DNA from: Eremomyces bilateralis CBS 781.70
Lineage: Eukaryota > Ascomycota > Dothideomycetes > Eremomycetales > Eremomycetaceae
Length of the DNA stretch: 64,000 nt
Direction: 5' to 3'
NCBI RefSeq assembly: GCF_010015585.1
Contig: NW_022985071.1
Coordinates: 499,979-563,978, forward strand
Below the pieces are notes generated by a model that had not been told where the DNA came from, made no database searches, and worked only from the letters and a program-made list of their open reading frames with translations. Shown here piece by piece: positions 3,837 to 38,021 of this stretch. The translations under genes and the position numbers were made by a program. Within the stretch, counting starts at the first letter, position 1; each line of letters opens with the position of its first letter.

Positions 3837-4860
3837 TGAGTCCGGTTCGCCGACTCCAACGCCGGTGAAAGTGCCGGAGAGGCGAAGGCGTATGTGAGAG
3901 TAGAAGGAAAGGGAAGAGACACAAGATCTTTGGAGCAAATAACAGTCTTCGGTTGTATAGGAAGGACAGTGGGGAGAAGAGATAACGATTCGAAGAACGT
4001 GAAGAGAAGGAGGGCGACGCCATTTTAAGAAAATGTCGCGGAATCTGTTGGAGAGCCATTTCGGGCCCTTCTTCTGGCCCTTTAGACGCCAGAGGATGAG
4101 CGAGTGAGAGTAGAGTTGGAAAGCAGAGTTAGAAAACGAAATACTGAAAACTAGACGTCGCATGCTCTAAGTCAGAGCGGAGCTAAAATGGGACATAGAC
4201 CAAAGTTGGTAGGGCATGACTCAGATCCATGTCAGTGAGATCCATGTCAGCGAGTAAGGGGAGTTCTCATTGGCGCTGGAGCATGGCAGATTTACCTCCA
4301 AAAACGGCGTCACAAACCTCCAAAAACGGACGTCAATCTGCCGTCTTTTTGTTTAAATAGGATTTACCAACAAATTCGCAATATCAGGAACTGTAAGAAA
4401 CTAGACCGTTTCCAGCGGGTATCCACAGTTGTAAAACTGGGTTGTCAACGAGCTAACGTACTGTGGATCGGAGGTTGCAAAACCTCTCCAATGTCACAGA
4501 TGCCTAGCTGCGGACCAATAGACAAGAACTTTGACTCGGAGTGTGTAGAATCTTGAACTTTTGCTGTAGACGAGGGGAGTGGCCACCAGCCCGTGGTTCA
4601 TGGAAAGTGTCCATTGTTATAGACTCATACAGAAAGATTGCATATGAGATTGGTTCTACACGGGGAAAGCGAGAAATATGTAGCAAGGAATGAATCGAAG
4701 GCGGGAAGATGGCGACGAGAGGAACTGCAGGCATCACCGTCGACTGAAATCCAGATGCGAGAGGTCAAGAGAAACGGGAAGCGCAAGTTCCTGTTCGTAC
4801 CTGACATGTACCGCTGTTCTCTCCGAAGTATATCCGGAGCGGACGGGACCACATCAACTT
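3837..4860. other. Upstream flank of the DUF3435 gene, no gene recognised
   Basis: Apart from the short repeats listed separately, only overlapping small frames without family resemblance are seen. The promoter of the recombinase gene should lie at the left end of this stretch. Confidence 0.5.
4226..4345. repeat. Short direct and inverted repeats upstream of the DUF3435 gene
   Basis: A 15 bp unit with gatccatgtcag is repeated in tandem at 4226-4255. The inverted pair ggcagatt (4285-4292) and aatctgcc (4335-4342) encloses two copies of acctccaaaaacgg. They sit about 400-600 bp upstream of the recombinase start, where Starship ends usually lie. I cannot show that they are element termini. Confidence 0.45.
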
Positions 4861-4863
4861 GAA

Positions 4864-4960
4864 TATAGGGCATCCCGTCTGCTCTGCCGTACTCAAGCAG
4901 GTTAGAGACAGAATAGTACTACGGTGGGTGACCACGTGGGAAGTCTTCACAATAGTACCA
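4864..4960 (+). pseudogene. 5S rRNA-like fragment
   Basis: The segment contains two blocks typical of fungal 5S rRNA: gggcatcccgtctgctctg followed by ccgtactcaagc (internal promoter box A side), and ggtgggtgaccac (box C side), in the right order and spacing. The 5' end of a normal 5S gene (acatacgaccat) is missing and the middle is diverged. It is best read as a truncated 5S pseudogene or a 5S-derived retroposed sequence. Fungal 5S genes are dispersed, so an isolated copy is not surprising. Confidence 0.6.
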
Positions 4961-5062
4961 TCCGGTTCGCCTGCCATTGGCCGGGCGAGTTACCATACAT
5001 ACTTAGTCAACGCGTCGTTAGGAGATACTGTAATCAAAAAATTAGGGCTGCGTAGAGTACTG

Positions 5063-18253: not shown

Positions 18254-18727
18254 GGAGTGGTCACGATAGGATGGAGGGCCGGATGGGTATCCGTTCGTCG
18301 ACCCCTACTCATGCCTTCCCTGTGCAACCCATGAGTTTGTCGACAGTGTTTTTCTGGTTTCCGATGAGTATTATTATTTCGGAAAATACGTATGGTCGAA
18401 TGGGCAGAATTCAAGAATAATGGAGGATTCCTCCGCGATGGACGGGTGGGCTTCATGATGCGATGACATTTTTCACGGATGAAACGGTTCTAGATCGGAG
18501 ACCGGGCTTTTCTTTGACTGAGACTGGCTTTGAGGTCGGAATTTACTCCTAGCTCTCTACCTATGATTCTCTAAATCTTCAAACCATGCGGTGGTGCTTG
18601 GAATGTGCGTGTTCAATGTCGTGTACTCGTTCGGTCAATGGTCTACAAATCAAGGACTGGGCTGGGGTATAACTCCAGTAACTCCGTACCGTAAGACGGT
18701 AGTTCGTCAAAAATGACCATAAAATGA
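18254..18727. other. 3' flank of the DUF3824-like gene up to the transposon
   Basis: No gene is seen. This should hold the 3' untranslated region and terminator; the transposon's TA target site is at 18728-18729. Confidence 0.5.
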
Positions 18728-18729
18728 TA

Positions 18730-18804
18730 TTCTCATATTCAGGTTAAGGTAGGATCCTTGGCGGCTTGGCAATTTTTACTCCACCAACACGCGTCAGAAC
18801 GCGC
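18730..18804 (+). repeat. Left terminal inverted repeat (75 bp)
   Basis: Identical to the reverse complement of 22088-22162 across all 75 bases. It contains ggatccttggcggcttgg. Confidence 0.95.
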
Positions 18805-18907
18805 ATTTCATCAATTATATCAACGCAGCAACCACCACGTTCATTACTTTATCAATTTAGGTATTTTTGAGGAGCTATTGACAGAAAACACCTACTTATC
18901 TATTTAG

Positions 18908-19965
18908 ATGGTAGCCATGCCTCCTTTCCAGCTACCAGCTACCAGGTCTCAGATCTCAGATGCGACTTTACGCGACATAGAGTACCGTCTCAACGCTGGA
19001 CAAGTCAATATGCACATAATCGCCGCAACGAGTATAAACAAGAATACAATGACGAGATTAAGGAAGCGATGGAGCGAGACTGGGACCATTTACGCCATAA
19101 GGACGCGTCGCCCTGGTCCTAGACCTATNNNNNNNNNNNNNNNNNNNNNNNNNNNNNNNNNNNNNNNNNNNNNNNNNNNNNNNNNNNNNNNNNNNNNNNN
19201 NNNNNNNNNNNNNNNNNNNNNNNNNNNNNNNNNNNNNNNNNNNNNNNNNNNNNNNNNNNNNNNNNNNNNNNNNNNNNNNNNNNNNNNNNNNNNNNNNNNN
19301 NNNNNNNNNNNNNNNNNNNNNNNNNNNNNNNNNNNNNNNNNNNNNNNNNNNNNNNNNNNNNNNNNNNNNNNNNNNNNNNNNNNNNNNNNNNNNNNNNNNN
19401 NNNNNNNNNNNNNNNNNNNNNNNNNNNNNNNNNNNNNNNNNNNNNNNNNNNNNNNNNNNNNNNNNNNNNNNNNNNNNNNNNNNNNNNNNNNNNNNNNNNN
19501 NNNNNNNNNNNNNNNNNNNNNNNNNNNNNNNNNNNNNNGAGAGATGTTTAAACAATGGCTTCAGGAATGCGTTTTGCCGAAAATGAATCCATTCCCTGGT
19601 CCGCGGTCTATTCTGATTATGGATAACTGCAGTACTCATCGCATTACGGTAGGTCTTCTGTCTTAGCCTGGCTATCATATAAACTTACAAAGTAGTAGGG
19701 TATTCGCCAATTATGCGACGCTAAGGGTGTTCTTCTTAAATACTTCCCTCCATACTCGCCAGACTTAAATCCCATTGAGCCCTCGTTCCATGTCTTAAAA
19801 AGCTGGATGAAGCGGAATGATGATTTGCTTCCAGAGTTTAGGGAAGGCTATGAGGCGGCGTTTGTAGAGTTTCTAAAGGCAGCATGTATTGCTTTTACTG
19901 ACCGGACAAACCATCAAGCGCTGTGGCTGAAGTCTGGATATAATGTTCATGGTATTAATTTATAG
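18908..19965 (+). CDS. Tc1-type DDE transposase (interrupted by an assembly gap)
   Basis: The N-terminus from ATG 18908 shows a helix-turn-helix DNA-binding region (ATLRDIEYRLNAGQ, ATSINKNTMTRLRKRW). Bases 19129-19538 are Ns. After the gap come MFKQWLQECVLPKMN and ILIMDNCSTHR, with the second catalytic Asp. A 50 bp intron at 19649-19698 joins HRIT to GIRQLCDAKG, and then YFPPYSPDLNPIEPSFHVLKSW carries the third acidic residue. The first catalytic Asp is hidden in the gap. The stop is at 19963-19965. The HTH plus DDE_3-like core is the Tc1/mariner transposase layout. Whether the real length equals the N run is unknown, so the frame across the gap is assumed. Confidence 0.85.
19129..19538. other. 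Assembly gap (410 Ns)
   Basis: The gap lies inside the transposase, as expected if several similar copies of the element confused assembly. Confidence 0.99.
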
Positions 19966-20001
19966 ATAAATCCGAGACCGTTTAAAAGGCACGATGGTTT
20001 A

Positions 20002-21894
20002 CTAGCCACCCCCTCTAGTGACCGGAGGGTTAATAAACGACCGTTTAAAGCGTTCGAGTAGCTTCTTTGACCCGATGCTCTTAAGATAACCATCCTTGAT
20101 ATTCAGCCTCTCAGCAAGACGGATAGGATTTCTGCGAGCCTCCAGATTCGCATCGCCTATGGTATAACCTTCATTATCAAGGTCCTCGCCTGCCTTGATC
20201 AACTCTTCCCTTTGCGCTTCAGGCCAGCCCTGACCTATCCACCTACAAAACTCCCGGACCGTGAAGCCGTCGACTGATGATACTGGAGAACTGGGAGGTA
20301 CTGGAAATTGAGTTGCCATAGGTGTGGTAGGCGGCATACCCCAGGGCGTCATACCCATAGATGGGAAGCCGAAGTTGAAGTTCTGGGTAGGGCCTGGCTG
20401 TGATGATAGAGTCTCAGTGGAAGACCGCTTTGATTTGGAAGTATTTCGGGCCTCTTGTGCTTGTTTCTGTTGGTCCCACGTAAAAAGCTGTTGCTGGATA
20501 GGGGCAGGAGGTGTTTCGATACTGTGAAGAGTAGGAGATATGCGGATTAGTTCGGCCCAGTTCTTAGTAATGCGATCAGATATCTCCATATGGCGATTTT
20601 CTGCCTGTGGGTTCGGCCAGCAATATAATGACCTTGCAGGACACCGATGTGAACCCAACGTGCACTTCCATCGCTGGGTAATCTCAGTCACAAGCGCACT
20701 CTTATCTGTATTGGCGGTGGTAATCGCTTGTACCGCCGGAGTAAGAGGATGCGCCAAAGATAGGGTACTGCCAGAAGATGCAGCAGTTGTCGATTGCCTG
20801 AGAATAGGGACTGGAGTCGGTAATGGCTCGAAAGTTGTGCCATATTTAACTTCAATGGTAATCTTGAGGTTTTGTAGGTTGAGTTCATGATACTGATAGT
20901 GTAAAACAGCGCGGAATTCTTTAGCGTCGTTATCAGTACTAAGATCAATGTCGTTCTCAACCACAGGTTTCGTTCGGCTATCAATCATTGCTGCAGAGAA
21001 TGAAGCCTTCGTCTCATGATGATAGACGAGAGGTTCAAACCGCTTCATTGCTTGTGATTTGGCGATAGATTGCGCAACCTCCAGAATCTTCTCGCGATTG
21101 ATATCCGCAAGGCTCGCTGCTGTCATTTTCTTCGGAAGTGCTAGCCCATCAAGGTATGGAATGAGCGTGAGGATGTTCTTCATAGTCTTGCCGAATAGAT
21201 TGTATATCTTATTGGTTGATTGAGATGCTGAATTCGCAGCAGGGCTGGCAATAGGCGATGATATCCCAGGTTGAGATCCGGTACCAAACCCTTGGACATT
21301 TGCTAAAACAGAACCTCGTTTCAGACGCTTGCGAGGTAACTCAACAACACCATCAGTAGAATCTACCTCATCCTGGCCGTCGCTACTATCGTCGTTATCC
21401 GAAATGATAAAGGTACGCCCCCTGGCAGGAGTCGGCGTGGACGGTGGAAAAGAGACTGCTTTCGTTTGCTTGCGTTTCTTCGCTGCTGCTACAGGCTGAG
21501 CCTTCGTAGGCCCTGCCCTCGTTGTGGTCTTCGCGGATTTCGTAGTCTTCGAACTAGCAGCTCTGCCGTTATCACTAGTAGAGCTACCTTTTGAATTCGA
21601 CTTTGTTGCCTTTTTTATAGGTCGACGACCAACCGCTGGTGCTAGTCTTGCTTGCACTACGTTATCTGGTGTGTCTTGATGTAGAGGATCCGCGAAACCG
21701 ACTCGCATCTGCCTGCGTCTGAGTCTACGTCGTCGAGAATATGGTGTATCCGTTTCTATATCGGATTTCAATTCGGATTCACTATGACGAGGACTTGATG
21801 ACGGGATATTGCGGTTTGATTGATCGCGCGTACGGGCCATTCCTAACAGAGTTTCGACTGCAGCTTCTTCTCCAGAGTCGTATTCGTTGTTCAT
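20002..21894 (-). CDS. Second ORF of the Tc1-type element, 630 residues, unknown function
   Basis: An uninterrupted frame lies inside the terminal repeats and converges on the transposase. The N-terminal ~220 residues are disordered and basic, with likely nuclear signals (SRRRRLRRRQ near residue 55, PRKRLKR near 190). A folded middle follows (about 225-360). Around residues 408-440 there is a Cys/His cluster (WKCTLGSHRCP, YCW, NRHMEI) that could bind zinc. A Pro/Met-rich linker follows, and the last ~80 residues form a compact helical region (VREFCRWIGQGWPEAQREEL, LAERLNIKDGYLKSIGSKKLLERFKR). I do not recognise the family. A nuclear DNA- or protein-binding accessory of the transposon is a guess from composition and position; captured host sequence is the alternative. 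Confidence 0.8.
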   Translation of the reverse strand: MNNEYDSGEEAAVETLLGMARTRDQSNRNIPSSSPRHSESELKSDIETDTPYSRRRRLRRRQMRVGFADPLHQDTPDNVVQARLAPAVGRRPIKKATKSNSKGSSTSDNGRAASSKTTKSAKTTTRAGPTKAQPVAAAKKRKQTKAVSFPPSTPTPARGRTFIISDNDDSSDGQDEVDSTDGVVELPRKRLKRGSVLANVQGFGTGSQPGISSPIASPAANSASQSTNKIYNLFGKTMKNILTLIPYLDGLALPKKMTAASLADINREKILEVAQSIAKSQAMKRFEPLVYHHETKASFSAAMIDSRTKPVVENDIDLSTDNDAKEFRAVLHYQYHELNLQNLKITIEVKYGTTFEPLPTPVPILRQSTTAASSGSTLSLAHPLTPAVQAITTANTDKSALVTEITQRWKCTLGSHRCPARSLYCWPNPQAENRHMEISDRITKNWAELIRISPTLHSIETPPAPIQQQLFTWDQQKQAQEARNTSKSKRSSTETLSSQPGPTQNFNFGFPSMGMTPWGMPPTTPMATQFPVPPSSPVSSVDGFTVREFCRWIGQGWPEAQREELIKAGEDLDNEGYTIGDANLEARRNPIRLAERLNIKDGYLKSIGSKKLLERFKRSFINPPVTRGGG

Positions 21895-22087
21895 CGATCG
21901 AGATAGTGCTTTGGAATATGCGATACGACGCGAGCCTGACGCGATTTAGTTCAACAAGTTCTGTAACTATAGTATTAAAACATACAGCGTTACGACAGCA
22001 GAAAATAAAGATTTCAACAAATGTTTGAAGCCTAAGAGCAATGATTATGGGCTAGATAAAAGCGCGATATTGATATAATTGATAAAA

Positions 22088-22162
22088 GCGCGTTCTGACG
22101 CGTGTTGGTGGAGTAAAAATTGCCAAGCCGCCAAGGATCCTACCTTAACCTGAATATGAGAA
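22088..22162 (-). repeat. Right terminal inverted repeat (75 bp)
   Basis: Perfect reverse-complement match to 18730-18804, followed by the TA target duplication. Confidence 0.95.
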
Positions 22163-22164
22163 TA

Positions 22165-22568
22165 TGGCAATACGGCTCCGAGGAGATGCAAGAAGCCGAC
22201 GGACGGTCCGCAGACTCATACCCTACCATCCCCGATTGTGTTTGTCCACGACTATGTCTCTTCAAGAGGATTCTAGCTGCCACTGGATAGACATATGGAG
22301 TTCCACTGCAGCTGCCTGCGCGTGATTACCGCTGGTCGTCTCGTGCCATCACCGCTACTTCACAACACAACCGCAAAGAGCCGCTTTAAATTCAGCCCCA
22401 CCCTTCAGTAAACCTTCTCAAGACCTGCAAAGAGGAGAAAAAGACACGAAGCAACGAATATTCAAACATAGAAAAATAACCAGTCAATAACAAGTCCTCA
22501 ATGTGAGTTCGACTAGCTGCCCTCCTGTTCATCCTTCCAGTGAAATCAGTGCCTAGCAACCACCCACG
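22165..22568. other. Promoter and leader of the small secreted protein gene
   Basis: The right TA duplication is followed by about 400 bp without a gene. A GTGAGT donor at about 22505 and a ttccag acceptor near 22540 suggest an intron in the 5' leader. Confidence 0.4.
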
Positions 22569-28561: not shown

Positions 28562-30423
28562 AGACAGGACCCCCGGTTTGTAACCACCCCACTTTGTAAC
28601 CAACTAAACCCCTTCAATCTGGAGATGAGACAGATCAATAAAATACATGTACCACCACACAATCATGCTGTAACTGTGTCGAAATCCCTCCAGTTAATGA
28701 AGAGGCTATAAAGCTCGCGATTCAGGCTTATATTAATAGAGAATTTGACTCTATACATAAGTGCGCGGACCAGTACGGTGTTACCTACTCCACGCTCCAA
28801 AAGCGCCTCCAAAACGACCGCCAATCGCACCAAATTGGTGCTCAAAAGCTCCAGAAGCTGTCTCCTGTACAAGAACGATATCTAGCGGAATGGATAGCCC
28901 TGGAAGACCGGGCTTCGAATGCCCCCTCCCACGGCAGGGTTCGTCAAATGGCAGAAGCAATTGCCCGCGAAAATGGTGACCACACGCCTTGCGGGAAGAA
29001 CTGGGTGGACGGATTCCTCAAGCGAAACCCCCATATAAAAACTATGGTGGGCAAATCAATCGAAGCTTCCCGCGTAAATTGTTCGTCCAAGGAAATCATA
29101 GCGGCCTGGTTCAACCTTCTCCAGAGCCTGATCGACCAGTTTCACATCAAAACGGAGAATATCTGGAATATCGACGAGCACGGGATTGCGCTTGGGTGCG
29201 GCGTAAATGGGCGTGTCTTAGCACCAATACAAGAGAAAAAGATGGGAAAGAACAGCAGGAAAAAGACCTATATCAAGACTCCGGAGGACCGCGAATGGGT
29301 CTCCGTCATTGAGGCCATTTCAGCCGTTGGCCGCGCGATCTCTCCGCTCATCACCTTCAAGGGCAAAAACCTCCAATCTACGTGGTTCCCTGCGGATCTC
29401 TCGAGCATGAAGGACTGGCATTGGACAGTTTCAGAGAACGCCTGGACGTCAAACGAAATCGGGCTCAAATGGTTGGAGAAGAAGTTCCTCCCGGAGACCG
29501 CACCAAAAGACCGTACGGAATGGCGTCTCCTAATTTGCGATGGGCACGGATCGCACGCGACGGTCGAGTTCATGAAGATGTGCAAGGATAATAAGGTAAT
29601 TGTCCTATATCTCCCTCCCCATTGCTCCCATCTGCTTCAGCCCCTAGATGTCGCTTGTTTTTCGGCCCTGAAGAGTAAATATCGCAAGGAATTAACCCAA
29701 TTGAGCTCCCTCGACGACTCTGCCCCAGTTAAGAAGCATAATTTTATAAACATTTATAATAAATCCCGCATTGAAGCTTTGATAAACCATAATATCCGCG
29801 CTGGGTTCAGAGGCACCGGAATCTGCCCATTCAACCCACACAAAGTATTAAATAGCACCCAATTAAACGAGAACCATACTATACAACGTCATGTGACCCC
29901 AGAGCCCATATATGATTATATATTTAATACACCCAAAGGCCCAAAAGACGTGTATACGGGGAAAAAGTTTGAGGACATGCCTGGACGGGATTTCAGGGGT
30001 TTACAGGGGAAATTGGCCAAGGCACTCTCAAAGAAGAACGTCGAAATCGCAGCACTGAAAGCGCAAGTTGCAAAGCTCGAAAAATCACTGGAAGACATAG
30101 GCGGATTGTCTAAGAAAAGGAAAAGAGTCCAAGTCGACCAAAATGAGCGATTTGCGACGATTGATCAGATTGTTGCTGCGCAAGAAGAAGCAAGACAAGC
30201 GGAGCTGAAGGAGGCGAAGAAGAAGCCCAAATTTGACGCGCAAAAAATTTCGGACGAGCTGCAAAAAGCAGAATTCGAATCACTTTGCTCACAGTTTCAG
30301 ATATAATATATAAATTTCAATATTGGTGGAGTTATTATACAGAATCTATAGTCCTCTGTTGTTGGTGTTGCTGCGTGTGAAGTTGTTACAAATCGGGGTG
30401 GTTACAAACCGGGGATCCTGTCT
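28562..30423 (+). mobile_element. Pogo/Fot-type DNA transposon, copy 1 (1,862 bp)
   Basis: The ends are inverted repeats starting agacaggacccccggtttgtaacc (one mismatch at the right end), each with a second inner copy of the tttgtaac motif. TA duplications lie at 28560-28561 and 30424-30425. The length equals that of copy 2 exactly. It carries one transposase gene in the + direction, whose start codon is changed. Confidence 0.93.
28684..30306 (+). pseudogene. Pogo-type transposase, copy 1, start codon lost
   Basis: The 540-codon frame is open over its full length, but the first codon is ATC where copy 2 has ATG; the next in-frame ATG (28948) removes the first 88 residues. Domains in order: a psq-type helix-turn-helix (HKCADQYGVTYSTLQKRL), a CENP-B-like second DNA-binding part (GDHTPCGKNWVDGFLKRNP) and a DDE core. 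The core has NIDEHG (first Asp), LICDGHGSH (second Asp) and YLPPHCSHLLQPLDV (third Asp position), then a basic coiled C-terminus. Copy 2 has NFDEHG, the more usual form. With the HTH missing, any product from 28948 should not bind the ends normally. Confidence 0.85.
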
Positions 30424-36159: not shown

Positions 36160-38021
36160 AGACAGGACCCCCGGTTTGTAACCACCCCGATTTGTAACCA
36201 CTTCACACGCAGCAACACCAACAACAGAGGACTATAGATTCTGTATAATAACTCCACCAATATTGAAATTTATATATTATATCTGAAACTGTGAGCAAAG
36301 TGATTCGAATTCTGCTTTTTGCAGCTCGTCCGAAATTTTTTGCGCGTCAAATTTGGGCTTCTTCTTCGCCTCCTTCAGCTCCGCTTGTCTTGCTTCTTCT
36401 TGCGCAGCAACAATCTGATCAATCGTCGCAAATCGCTCATTTTGGTCGACTTGGACTCTTTTCCTTTTCTTAGACAATCCGCCTATGTCTTCCAGTGATT
36501 TTTCGAGCTTTGCAACTTGCGCTTTCAGTGCTGCGATTTCGACGTTCTTCTTTGAGAGTGCCTTGGCCAATTTCCCCTGTAAACCCCTGAAATCCCGTCC
36601 AGACATATCCTCAAACTTTTTCCCCGTATACACGTCTTTTGGGCCTTTGGGTGTATTAAATATATAATCATATATGGGCTCTGGGGTCACATGACGTTGT
36701 ATAGTATGGTTCTCGTTTAATTGGGTGCTATTTAATACTTTGTGTGGGTTGAATGGGCAGATTCCGGTGCCTCTGAACCCAGCGCGGATATTATGGTTTA
36801 TCAAAGCTTCAATGCGGGATTTATTATAAATGTTTATAAAATTATGCTTCTTAACTGGGGCAGAGTCGTCGAGGGAGCTCAATTGGGTTAATTCCTTGCG
36901 ATATTTACTCTTCAGGGCCGAAAAACAAGCGACATCTAGGGGCTGAAGCAGATGGGAGCAATGGGGAGGGAGATATAGGACAATTACCTTATTATCCTTA
37001 CACATCTTCATGAACTCGACCGTCGCGTGCGATCCGTGCCCATCGCAAATTAGGAGACGCCATTCCGTACGGTCTTTTGGTGCGGTCTCCGGGAGGAACT
37101 TCTTCTCCAACCATTTGAGCCCGATTTCGTTTGACGTCCAGGCGTTCTCTGAAACTGTCCAATGCCAGTCCTTCGTGCTCGAGAGATCCGCAGGGAACCA
37201 CGTAGATTGGAGGTTTTTGCCCTTGAAGATGATGAGCGGAGAGATCGCGCGGCCAACGGCTGAAATGGCCTCAATGACGGAGACCCACTCGCGGTCCTCC
37301 GGAGTCTTGATATAGGTCTTTTTCCTGCTGTTCTTCCCCATCTTTTTCTCTTGTATTGGTGCTAAGACACGCCCATTTACGCCGCACCCAAGCGCAATCC
37401 CGTGCTCGTCGAAATTCCAGATATTCTCCGTTTTGATGTGAAACTGGTCGATCAGGCTCTGGAGAAGGTTGAACCAGGCCGCTATGATTTCCTTGGACGA
37501 ACAATTTACGCGGGAAGCTTCGATTGATTTGCCCACCATAGTTTTTATATGGGGATTTCGCTTGAGGAATCCGTCCACCCAGTTCTTCCCGCAAGGCGTG
37601 TGGTCACCATTTTCGCGGGCAATTGCTTCTGCCATTTGACGAACCCTGCCGTGGGAGGGGGCATTCGAAGCCCGGTCTTCCAGGGCTATCCATTCCGCTA
37701 GATATCGTTCTTGTACAGGAGACAGCTTCTGGAGCTTTTGAGCACCAATTTGGTGCGATTGGCGGTCGTTTTGGAGGCGCTTTTGGAGCGTGGAGTAGGT
37801 AACACCGTACTGGTCCGCGCACTTATGTATAGAGTCAAATTCTTTATTAATATAAGCCTGAATCGCGAGCTTTATAGCCTCTTCATTAACTGGAGGCATT
37901 TCGACACAGTTACAGCATGATTGTGTGGTGGTAGATGTATTTTATTGATCTGTCTCATCTCCAGATTGAAGGGATTTAGTTGGTTACAAAGTGGGGTGGT
38001 TACAAACCGGGGGTCCTGTCT
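36160..38021 (-). mobile_element. Pogo/Fot-type DNA transposon, copy 2 (1,862 bp)
   Basis: Same length and ends as copy 1 but in the opposite orientation, with TA duplications at 36158-36159 and 38022-38023. The sequences differ by only a handful of bases, so both insertions are recent. The transposase is intact. Confidence 0.94.
36277..37899 (-). CDS. Pogo-type transposase, copy 2, intact (540 residues)
   Basis: The full frame starts at ATG 37899 (MPPVNEEAIKLAIQAYINKEF). The order is an N-terminal psq-type HTH, a CENP-B-like region, a DDE_1 core (NFDEHG, LICDGHGSH, PPHCSHLLQPLDV) and a Lys-rich coiled C-terminus (KNVEIAALKAQVAKLEKSLEDI). The tail also has nuclear-signal-like KKRKRV. All expected catalytic positions are present. 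It could serve both this copy and copy 1 in trans. Differences from copy 1 include Lys/Arg in YINKEF, Phe/Ile in NFDE, Ile/Thr in IIFKGK, Thr/Met in SSTKDW and Ser/Pro in DMSGRD. Confidence 0.93.
   Translation of the reverse strand: MPPVNEEAIKLAIQAYINKEFDSIHKCADQYGVTYSTLQKRLQNDRQSHQIGAQKLQKLSPVQERYLAEWIALEDRASNAPSHGRVRQMAEAIARENGDHTPCGKNWVDGFLKRNPHIKTMVGKSIEASRVNCSSKEIIAAWFNLLQSLIDQFHIKTENIWNFDEHGIALGCGVNGRVLAPIQEKKMGKNSRKKTYIKTPEDREWVSVIEAISAVGRAISPLIIFKGKNLQSTWFPADLSSTKDWHWTVSENAWTSNEIGLKWLEKKFLPETAPKDRTEWRLLICDGHGSHATVEFMKMCKDNKVIVLYLPPHCSHLLQPLDVACFSALKSKYRKELTQLSSLDDSAPVKKHNFINIYNKSRIEALINHNIRAGFRGTGICPFNPHKVLNSTQLNENHTIQRHVTPEPIYDYIFNTPKGPKDVYTGKKFEDMSGRDFRGLQGKLAKALSKKNVEIAALKAQVAKLEKSLEDIGGLSKKRKRVQVDQNERFATIDQIVAAQEEARQAELKEAKKKPKFDAQKISDELQKAEFESLCSQFQI

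Follow-up and report, generated by a model that had tools for sequence, protein, structure and literature searches.

Tc1/mariner elements are textbook transposons that need only their transposase. A two-gene logic is known from Harbinger and MuDR elements, the second protein of Harbinger being Myb-like. Here we describe a two-gene Tc1/mariner element in a 64,000-nucleotide stretch of the genome of Eremomyces bilateralis CBS 781.70 (contig NW_022985071.1, positions 499,979 to 563,978; hereafter the window). The element occupies positions 18730-22162 (3,433 bp, TA excluded) and carries, convergent to its transposase gene, a second open reading frame (ORF) of 630 amino acids, ORF2, whose product is here called ORF2p. 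Judging from sequence comparisons, ORF2 is probably resident in a two-gene lineage, and not chance cargo, because the transposases of distantly related families also have a convergent second gene that shares domains with it.

Members of the Tc1 group typically contain one ORF and average about 1.3 kb in length, according to the available part of the source (PMC7325037). Like the DD34E group of Tc1/mariner, the window element has a DDE_3 transposase, a DD34E triad, inverted ends and TA duplications, while it differs in being 3.4 kb long and in having two genes. The ciliate Tec and TBE elements, described in the same partial text as Tc1/mariner-type elements with extra ORFs, which in TBE include one for a zinc-finger protein (PMC7325037), resemble it by description in their extra genes and differ in having three ORFs and ciliate hosts. 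Viral and other Mariner elements that carry genes for Fanzor1, an endonuclease or a methyltransferase and have TA duplications, as presented in the available text of PMC3627910, likewise combine a Mariner-type transposase with extra proteins. Fanzor was rejected for ORF2, which differs in having only four cysteines (residues 411, 418, 425 and 550), no compact C4 zinc finger followed by RD, and no Pfam match. Among fungi, the accessible sections of PMC2836289 describe TremE and TremF of Paracoccidioides, Tc1/mariner consensus elements of 1.9 and 2.3 kb with two ORFs; the second ORF of TremE has 217 aa and is similar to a hypothetical protein, and in TremF the CENPB and DDE domains lie in different ORFs. 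By that description they share the two-ORF layout, but are shorter. Harbinger, MuDR and VANDAL, alike in their two-gene logic, belong to other superfamilies (for VANC, the available part of PMC5735166), and a Harbinger-type second protein was rejected, ORF2 having no Myb or other Pfam match at E up to 1. Extra genes in Tc1/mariner elements thus have precedents. Among the literature matches listed, and as far as the text of those sources was available, none described the ORF2 protein or this pairing in a fungal Tc1/mariner element, and Repbase may catalogue one.

The window element and its copies

The terminal inverted repeats of the element were perfect over 75 bases, the first mismatch being base 76, and a repeat search returned a single inverted pair (18727-18808 and 22084-22165, 82 nt, 99%). 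The two genes converge with their stop codons 36 bp apart. A sequence-only reading of this DNA had described 75 bp perfect ends, TA on both sides, a Tc1-like transposase and an uninterrupted convergent ORF within 3,433 bp, all of which we confirmed (Table 1). Because of a run of 410 N that hides the middle of the gene, the transposase of the window copy cannot be read as a whole, and its catalytic domain was therefore followed in the copy on C22, the only one readable throughout. Of five acceptor sites tested in that copy, only one gave a catalytic domain complete up to the final E. The resulting protein of 342 aa matched Pfam DDE_3 above the cut-off (E 4.9e-27), with 34 residues from the second D to the E, as counted by eye on the translation (DD34E). 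The hallmarks of Tc1/mariner are therefore present, namely a DDE_3 transposase, DD34E, terminal inverted repeats and TA, the last in all three two-ended copies, while the single-ORF layout that is typical of the superfamily, though not universal, is departed from by a second gene in each of the four copies. Membership of pogo/Fot1 was rejected, DDE_3 being the best match (95 bits) against 25.7 bits for DDE_1, with no HTH_psq or Tc5 match.

The copies were found by searching the window's own genome (26.6 Mb, 62 contigs). With the 81 leading bases of the element as query there were seven matches, corresponding to both ends of the copies on C5 (the window copy), C17 and C22 and to one end of a copy on C3, while ORF2 gave eight matches at E <= 0.001, all within these same four copies. 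Both genes were present in the same order in 4/4 copies, that on C3 being truncated. The sequence-only reading had named two findings that would speak against a resident gene, copies with the same ends lacking ORF2 and a match of ORF2 to a single-copy host gene; every copy reached through the seven end matches contained ORF2, and no separate host gene matched it in the genome at E <= 0.001.

The copies on C5, C17 and C22 were 98.8-99.4% identical to one another over mutually readable positions and were flanked by TA on both sides, in unrelated surroundings. The element is real and not a chance arrangement, given its 75 perfect terminal bases and the unrelated flanks of these three copies. Each of these flanks was found only once in the genome, so that no empty site is available for this family; since the flanks are also unrelated, segmental duplication of a single insertion was rejected. 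The C3 copy, with an identity of about 95%, has internal deletions and lacks the right end. In C17 the transposase has an early frameshift and 270 N and ORF2 is open; in C22 the transposase is open and ORF2 is frameshifted near residue 488; in C5 ORF2 is open and the transposase is gapped. None of the four assembled copies thus shows both genes intact. The sequence-only reading had argued for a resident gene from ORF2 staying open while the ends are intact, and ORF2 is indeed open in the window copy, but given the youth of the copies this argument carries little weight. As a separate observation, the left leader of the C22 copy (L008) contains a 411-bp insert that starts with TAGGGC, ends with GCCCTA and has an 8-bp duplication, GCAACCAC; it resembles a hAT-type short element.

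Related families and their second genes

With the transposase as query, the same genome gave 33 matches at E <= 0.01. Besides the four copies, we examined eight places (C15, C1:2391k, C22:377k, C10, C47, C2, C38 and C13), nine weaker ones with E from 1.5e-4 to 8.4e-3 being left out (C21, C24, C11, C7, two on C6, C39, C48 and C5:1111773). A convergent second gene, whole or partial, was present in 8/8 places, which represent three families and not eight independent cases: C15, C2 and the C1 family, the last with C1:2391k, C10, C22:377k, C47, C13 and C38 as members. Their transposases were 37% (C15), 30% (C2) and 29-31% (C1 family) identical to that of the window element. The second gene of C2 is broken by stops and lies within terminal repeats of 168 columns that are 90% identical. 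At C22:377k both ends of the gene flank an N run inside 139-bp repeats, at C47 only the N-terminal 100 codons precede a gap, and C1:2391k and C10 have just the final 48 codons, up to the contig end. In C13 and C38 the gene is truncated, apparently by one shared internal deletion that joins its middle to the transposase end. Further remnants of second genes were found at C52 and C1:490k, using the C15 and C2 second proteins as queries, and the surrounding 3.2 and 4.0 kb, of which the C52 stretch includes 382 N, contained no clear transposase (best E 0.24).

Counted from its first ATG, the second gene of C15 has an open frame of 463 codons; the protein used as query had 466 codons, starting 3 codons before that ATG. 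Since no terminal repeats were found in the stretches compared at this locus (score 22 against a shuffle mean of 21.8), C15 is a pair of transposase and second gene without demonstrable ends. Its second gene (L049 2335-3723) is open though the accompanying transposase has stops in its helix-turn-helix (HTH) part, and could be a relic, or perhaps a gene that the host has retained. Beside the C15 transposase lie two stretches of about 105 bases (L049 4873-4976 and 5092-5197) that recur on many contigs.

Movement of both genes together was observed in the C2 family. The C2 element (L054 4284-8809) is inserted in a repeated sequence of which two other copies lack it, and comparison with these paralogous empty sites revealed a clean insertion of the whole unit with duplication of AT; because both empty sites show this, the unit moved with its two genes. 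Duplications in the related families are not TA: besides the AT of C2, L051 and L056, of the C1 family, were seen by eye to be flanked by CT at each end.

To compare the second proteins, we used alignment scores against 500 shuffles and rankings among 704 open frames, each 70 aa or longer, drawn from ten loci and the remainder of the window. The Cys/His region of ORF2 scored 68 with C2 and 63 with C1, neither being reached by any of the 500 shuffles, and these ranked first and second of the 704 frames, the next score being 45 in a three-way tie that included the C15 second gene. With whole ORF2 as query, two C2 pieces ranked first and second (80 and 71) and C15 third (70). The C-terminal domains of C15 and C2 scored 79 (0/500 shuffles), C2 ranking first by far (70 against 42), while that of C15 matched the C1 piece at chance level (238/500). 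For the C15 cluster, C2 ranked first, barely (47 against 43). Eight columns were invariant in an alignment of three cluster sequences (W, C, C, W, P, H, I and P), and the motif common to the second proteins is C..C..CW..P..H, the C-terminal domain being shared more weakly. These comparisons form a chain in which the cluster connects ORF2 with C2 and C1, and the C-terminal domain connects C2 with C15, any direct connection of ORF2 with C15 being weak. ORF2 as a chance ORF was rejected, since second genes sharing its domains exist elsewhere in the genome. A terminal-repeat motif was also compared between families (C1 with C2, 12/1000 shuffles; window family with C1, 19/1000, in a different part; window family with C2, 83/1000) and was not used as evidence. 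Similar protein motifs presumably occur in hypothetical proteins of other fungi, which we take as a lead only.

A possible partner of the transposase

The anatomy of ORF2p agrees with what the sequence-only reading had noticed. Its residues 1-200 contain 38 lysines or arginines (K/R) against 24 aspartates or glutamates (D/E), the nuclear character of these basic signals being read by eye; the Cys/His cluster placed near residues 408-440 comprises residues 411, 416, 418, 425 and 435; and the C-terminus was predicted to be helical by AlphaFold from the single sequence, with moderate confidence (predicted local distance difference test, pLDDT, 69). The proposal of a resident accessory gene also gained support, from the gene order in 4/4 copies and from the related second genes beside distant transposases. 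We lean, a little beyond even chances, towards a fungal Tc1/mariner lineage that normally has two convergent genes and in which ORF2p is a nuclear DNA-binding partner of the transposase; as our best guess, such a partner is the simplest reading. ORF2p would enter the nucleus via its basic N-terminus, its Cys/His cluster would fold around zinc and contact DNA or chromatin, and its helical C-terminal domain could bind ORF2p itself or the transposase, whereby the protein might help in end recognition, synapsis or target choice. Such a two-component system would work by analogy with the second proteins of Harbinger or MuDR, kinship to which is not implied. A bolder version, which we think unlikely, is a two-component Tc1/mariner clade in which the second protein helps to bind the ends or to choose the target, and in which the change from TA to AT (C2) or CT (C1) would reflect its influence on targeting.

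Several results weigh against a DNA-binding partner. Neither Pfam nor NCBIfam gave a match to ORF2 at E <= 1, so that the proposed mechanism is drawn from anatomy only. A search of the PDB gave one match at E 0.78 and none better, in a fold search with the C-terminal model the best of 29 matches within E 10 had E 2.4, and residues 225-460 yielded an unusable model (pLDDT 34). The links among the second proteins are short domains only, and single second proteins used as whole-genome queries gave no match across families. The ORF2 cluster was weakly similar to that of C15 (score 45, 8/500 shuffles) and at chance level with the C52 remnant (27, 107/500), and the C15 cluster was weakly similar to the C2 and C1 pieces (34/500 and 31/500). 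The C-terminal domain of ORF2 gave modest scores with C2 (47, 1/500, ranking first of 704, barely, the next being 45) and C1 (39, 4/500) and a chance score with C15 (31, 230/500), and the middle domain was unconvincing (best 12/500, others at chance). The deletion shared by C13 and C38 removes the cluster and the C-terminus of the second gene, as if the deleted form had spread; if it did, the second protein is not needed in cis. Lastly, purifying selection, which the sequence-only reading had named as a mark of an ORF2 belonging to the element, did not appear among the young copies, where the nonsynonymous to synonymous ratio (pN/pS) of ORF2 was about 1 on small counts: 0.94 for C5-C17 (4 synonymous, 12 nonsynonymous), 0.94 for C5-C22 (3 and 9) and 1.20 for C17-C22 (5 and 19), with 0.73-0.79 against C3 over 429 codons. 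For the transposase, pN/pS against C3 was 0.51-0.67. The small counts are consistent with neutral decay after insertion, and neither prove nor exclude earlier selection.

The same pN/pS near 1, together with the lack of a known domain, would be expected of a captured host gene carried neutrally, but a domain-related second gene stands in the same convergent place in families with transposases only 29-37% identical, and no host source matched in the genome at E <= 0.001, and we consider a captured gene very improbable. The retention of ORF2 beside the transposase over long divergence, its basic N-terminus and its possible zinc cluster could also belong to an anti-silencing factor that would bind the element's DNA and remove or block repressive host marks with no role in cutting; the data do not separate such a factor from a transposition partner. 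VANC of the Arabidopsis VANDAL elements, as portrayed in the available part of PMC5735166, provides an analogous precedent in another superfamily, and we judge this explanation to be possible but rather doubtful. A role for ORF2p as a regulator of the transposase, as repressor or in copy-number control, seems to us slightly more doubtful still: the convergent gene ends, 36 bp apart, could also interfere through antisense transcripts, and the open transposase with frameshifted ORF2 in C22 and the reverse in C17 would fit such a role, but this distribution of broken genes, drawn from three copies, is compatible with random decay.

If the lineage keeps a second protein over long divergence, even the minimal Tc1/mariner system can become two-component, and such a lineage would be a tractable test case for what the second proteins of transposons do. 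ORF2 also points to a protein family without Pfam match, which annotations would label hypothetical. Scans of viral and of bacterial and archaeal contig collections with ORF2 gave no relative, nor did scans of the viral collection with the second protein or the transposase of C15 or with a family alignment.

Feature coordinates and neighbouring sequences

Table 1. Positions in the window of the parts of the two-gene element
Feature	Position	Strand	Basis or remark
TA target-site duplication, left	18728-18729	.	TA on both sides in 3/3 two-ended copies, flanks unrelated
Left terminal inverted repeat, 75 bp perfect	18730-18804	+	End-to-end comparison, repeat search
Transposase exon 1 (ATG at 18908): HTH part and start of DDE domain	18908-19648	+	410 N inside
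Assembly gap, 410 N in transposase exon 1	19129-19538		C22 copy readable across the same stretch
Transposase intron, predicted, 50-bp GT-AG	19649-19698	+	Acceptor test on C22 copy; identical sequence in window
Transposase exon 2: final catalytic E (DD34E) and stop (19963-19965)	19699-19965	+	Spacing counted by eye
ORF2, 630 aa	20002-21894	-	Uninterrupted frame; whole or in pieces in 4/4 copies
ORF2 residues 546-621, predicted helical C-terminal domain	20032-20259	-	AlphaFold model
ORF2 residues 411-435, Cys/His cluster (C411, C418, C425, W426, P429, H435)	20590-20664	-	Also in other families' second genes
ORF2 residues 1-200, basic stretches including runs that resemble nuclear-localisation signals	21295-21894	-	K/R count; signal reading by eye
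Right terminal inverted repeat, 75 bp perfect	22088-22162	-	End-to-end comparison, repeat search
TA target-site duplication, right	22163-22164	.	Comparison of copies

Elsewhere in the window, open Fot1/pogo-type transposase frames were present at 28948-30306 (+) and 36277-37899 (-), with DDE_1 matches at 4.7e-36 and 1.8e-37, respectively, the second frame also having HTH_psq and Tc5 domains. A match to a 5S rRNA gene (Rfam RF00001, 53.7 bits) was located at 4841-4964 (+).

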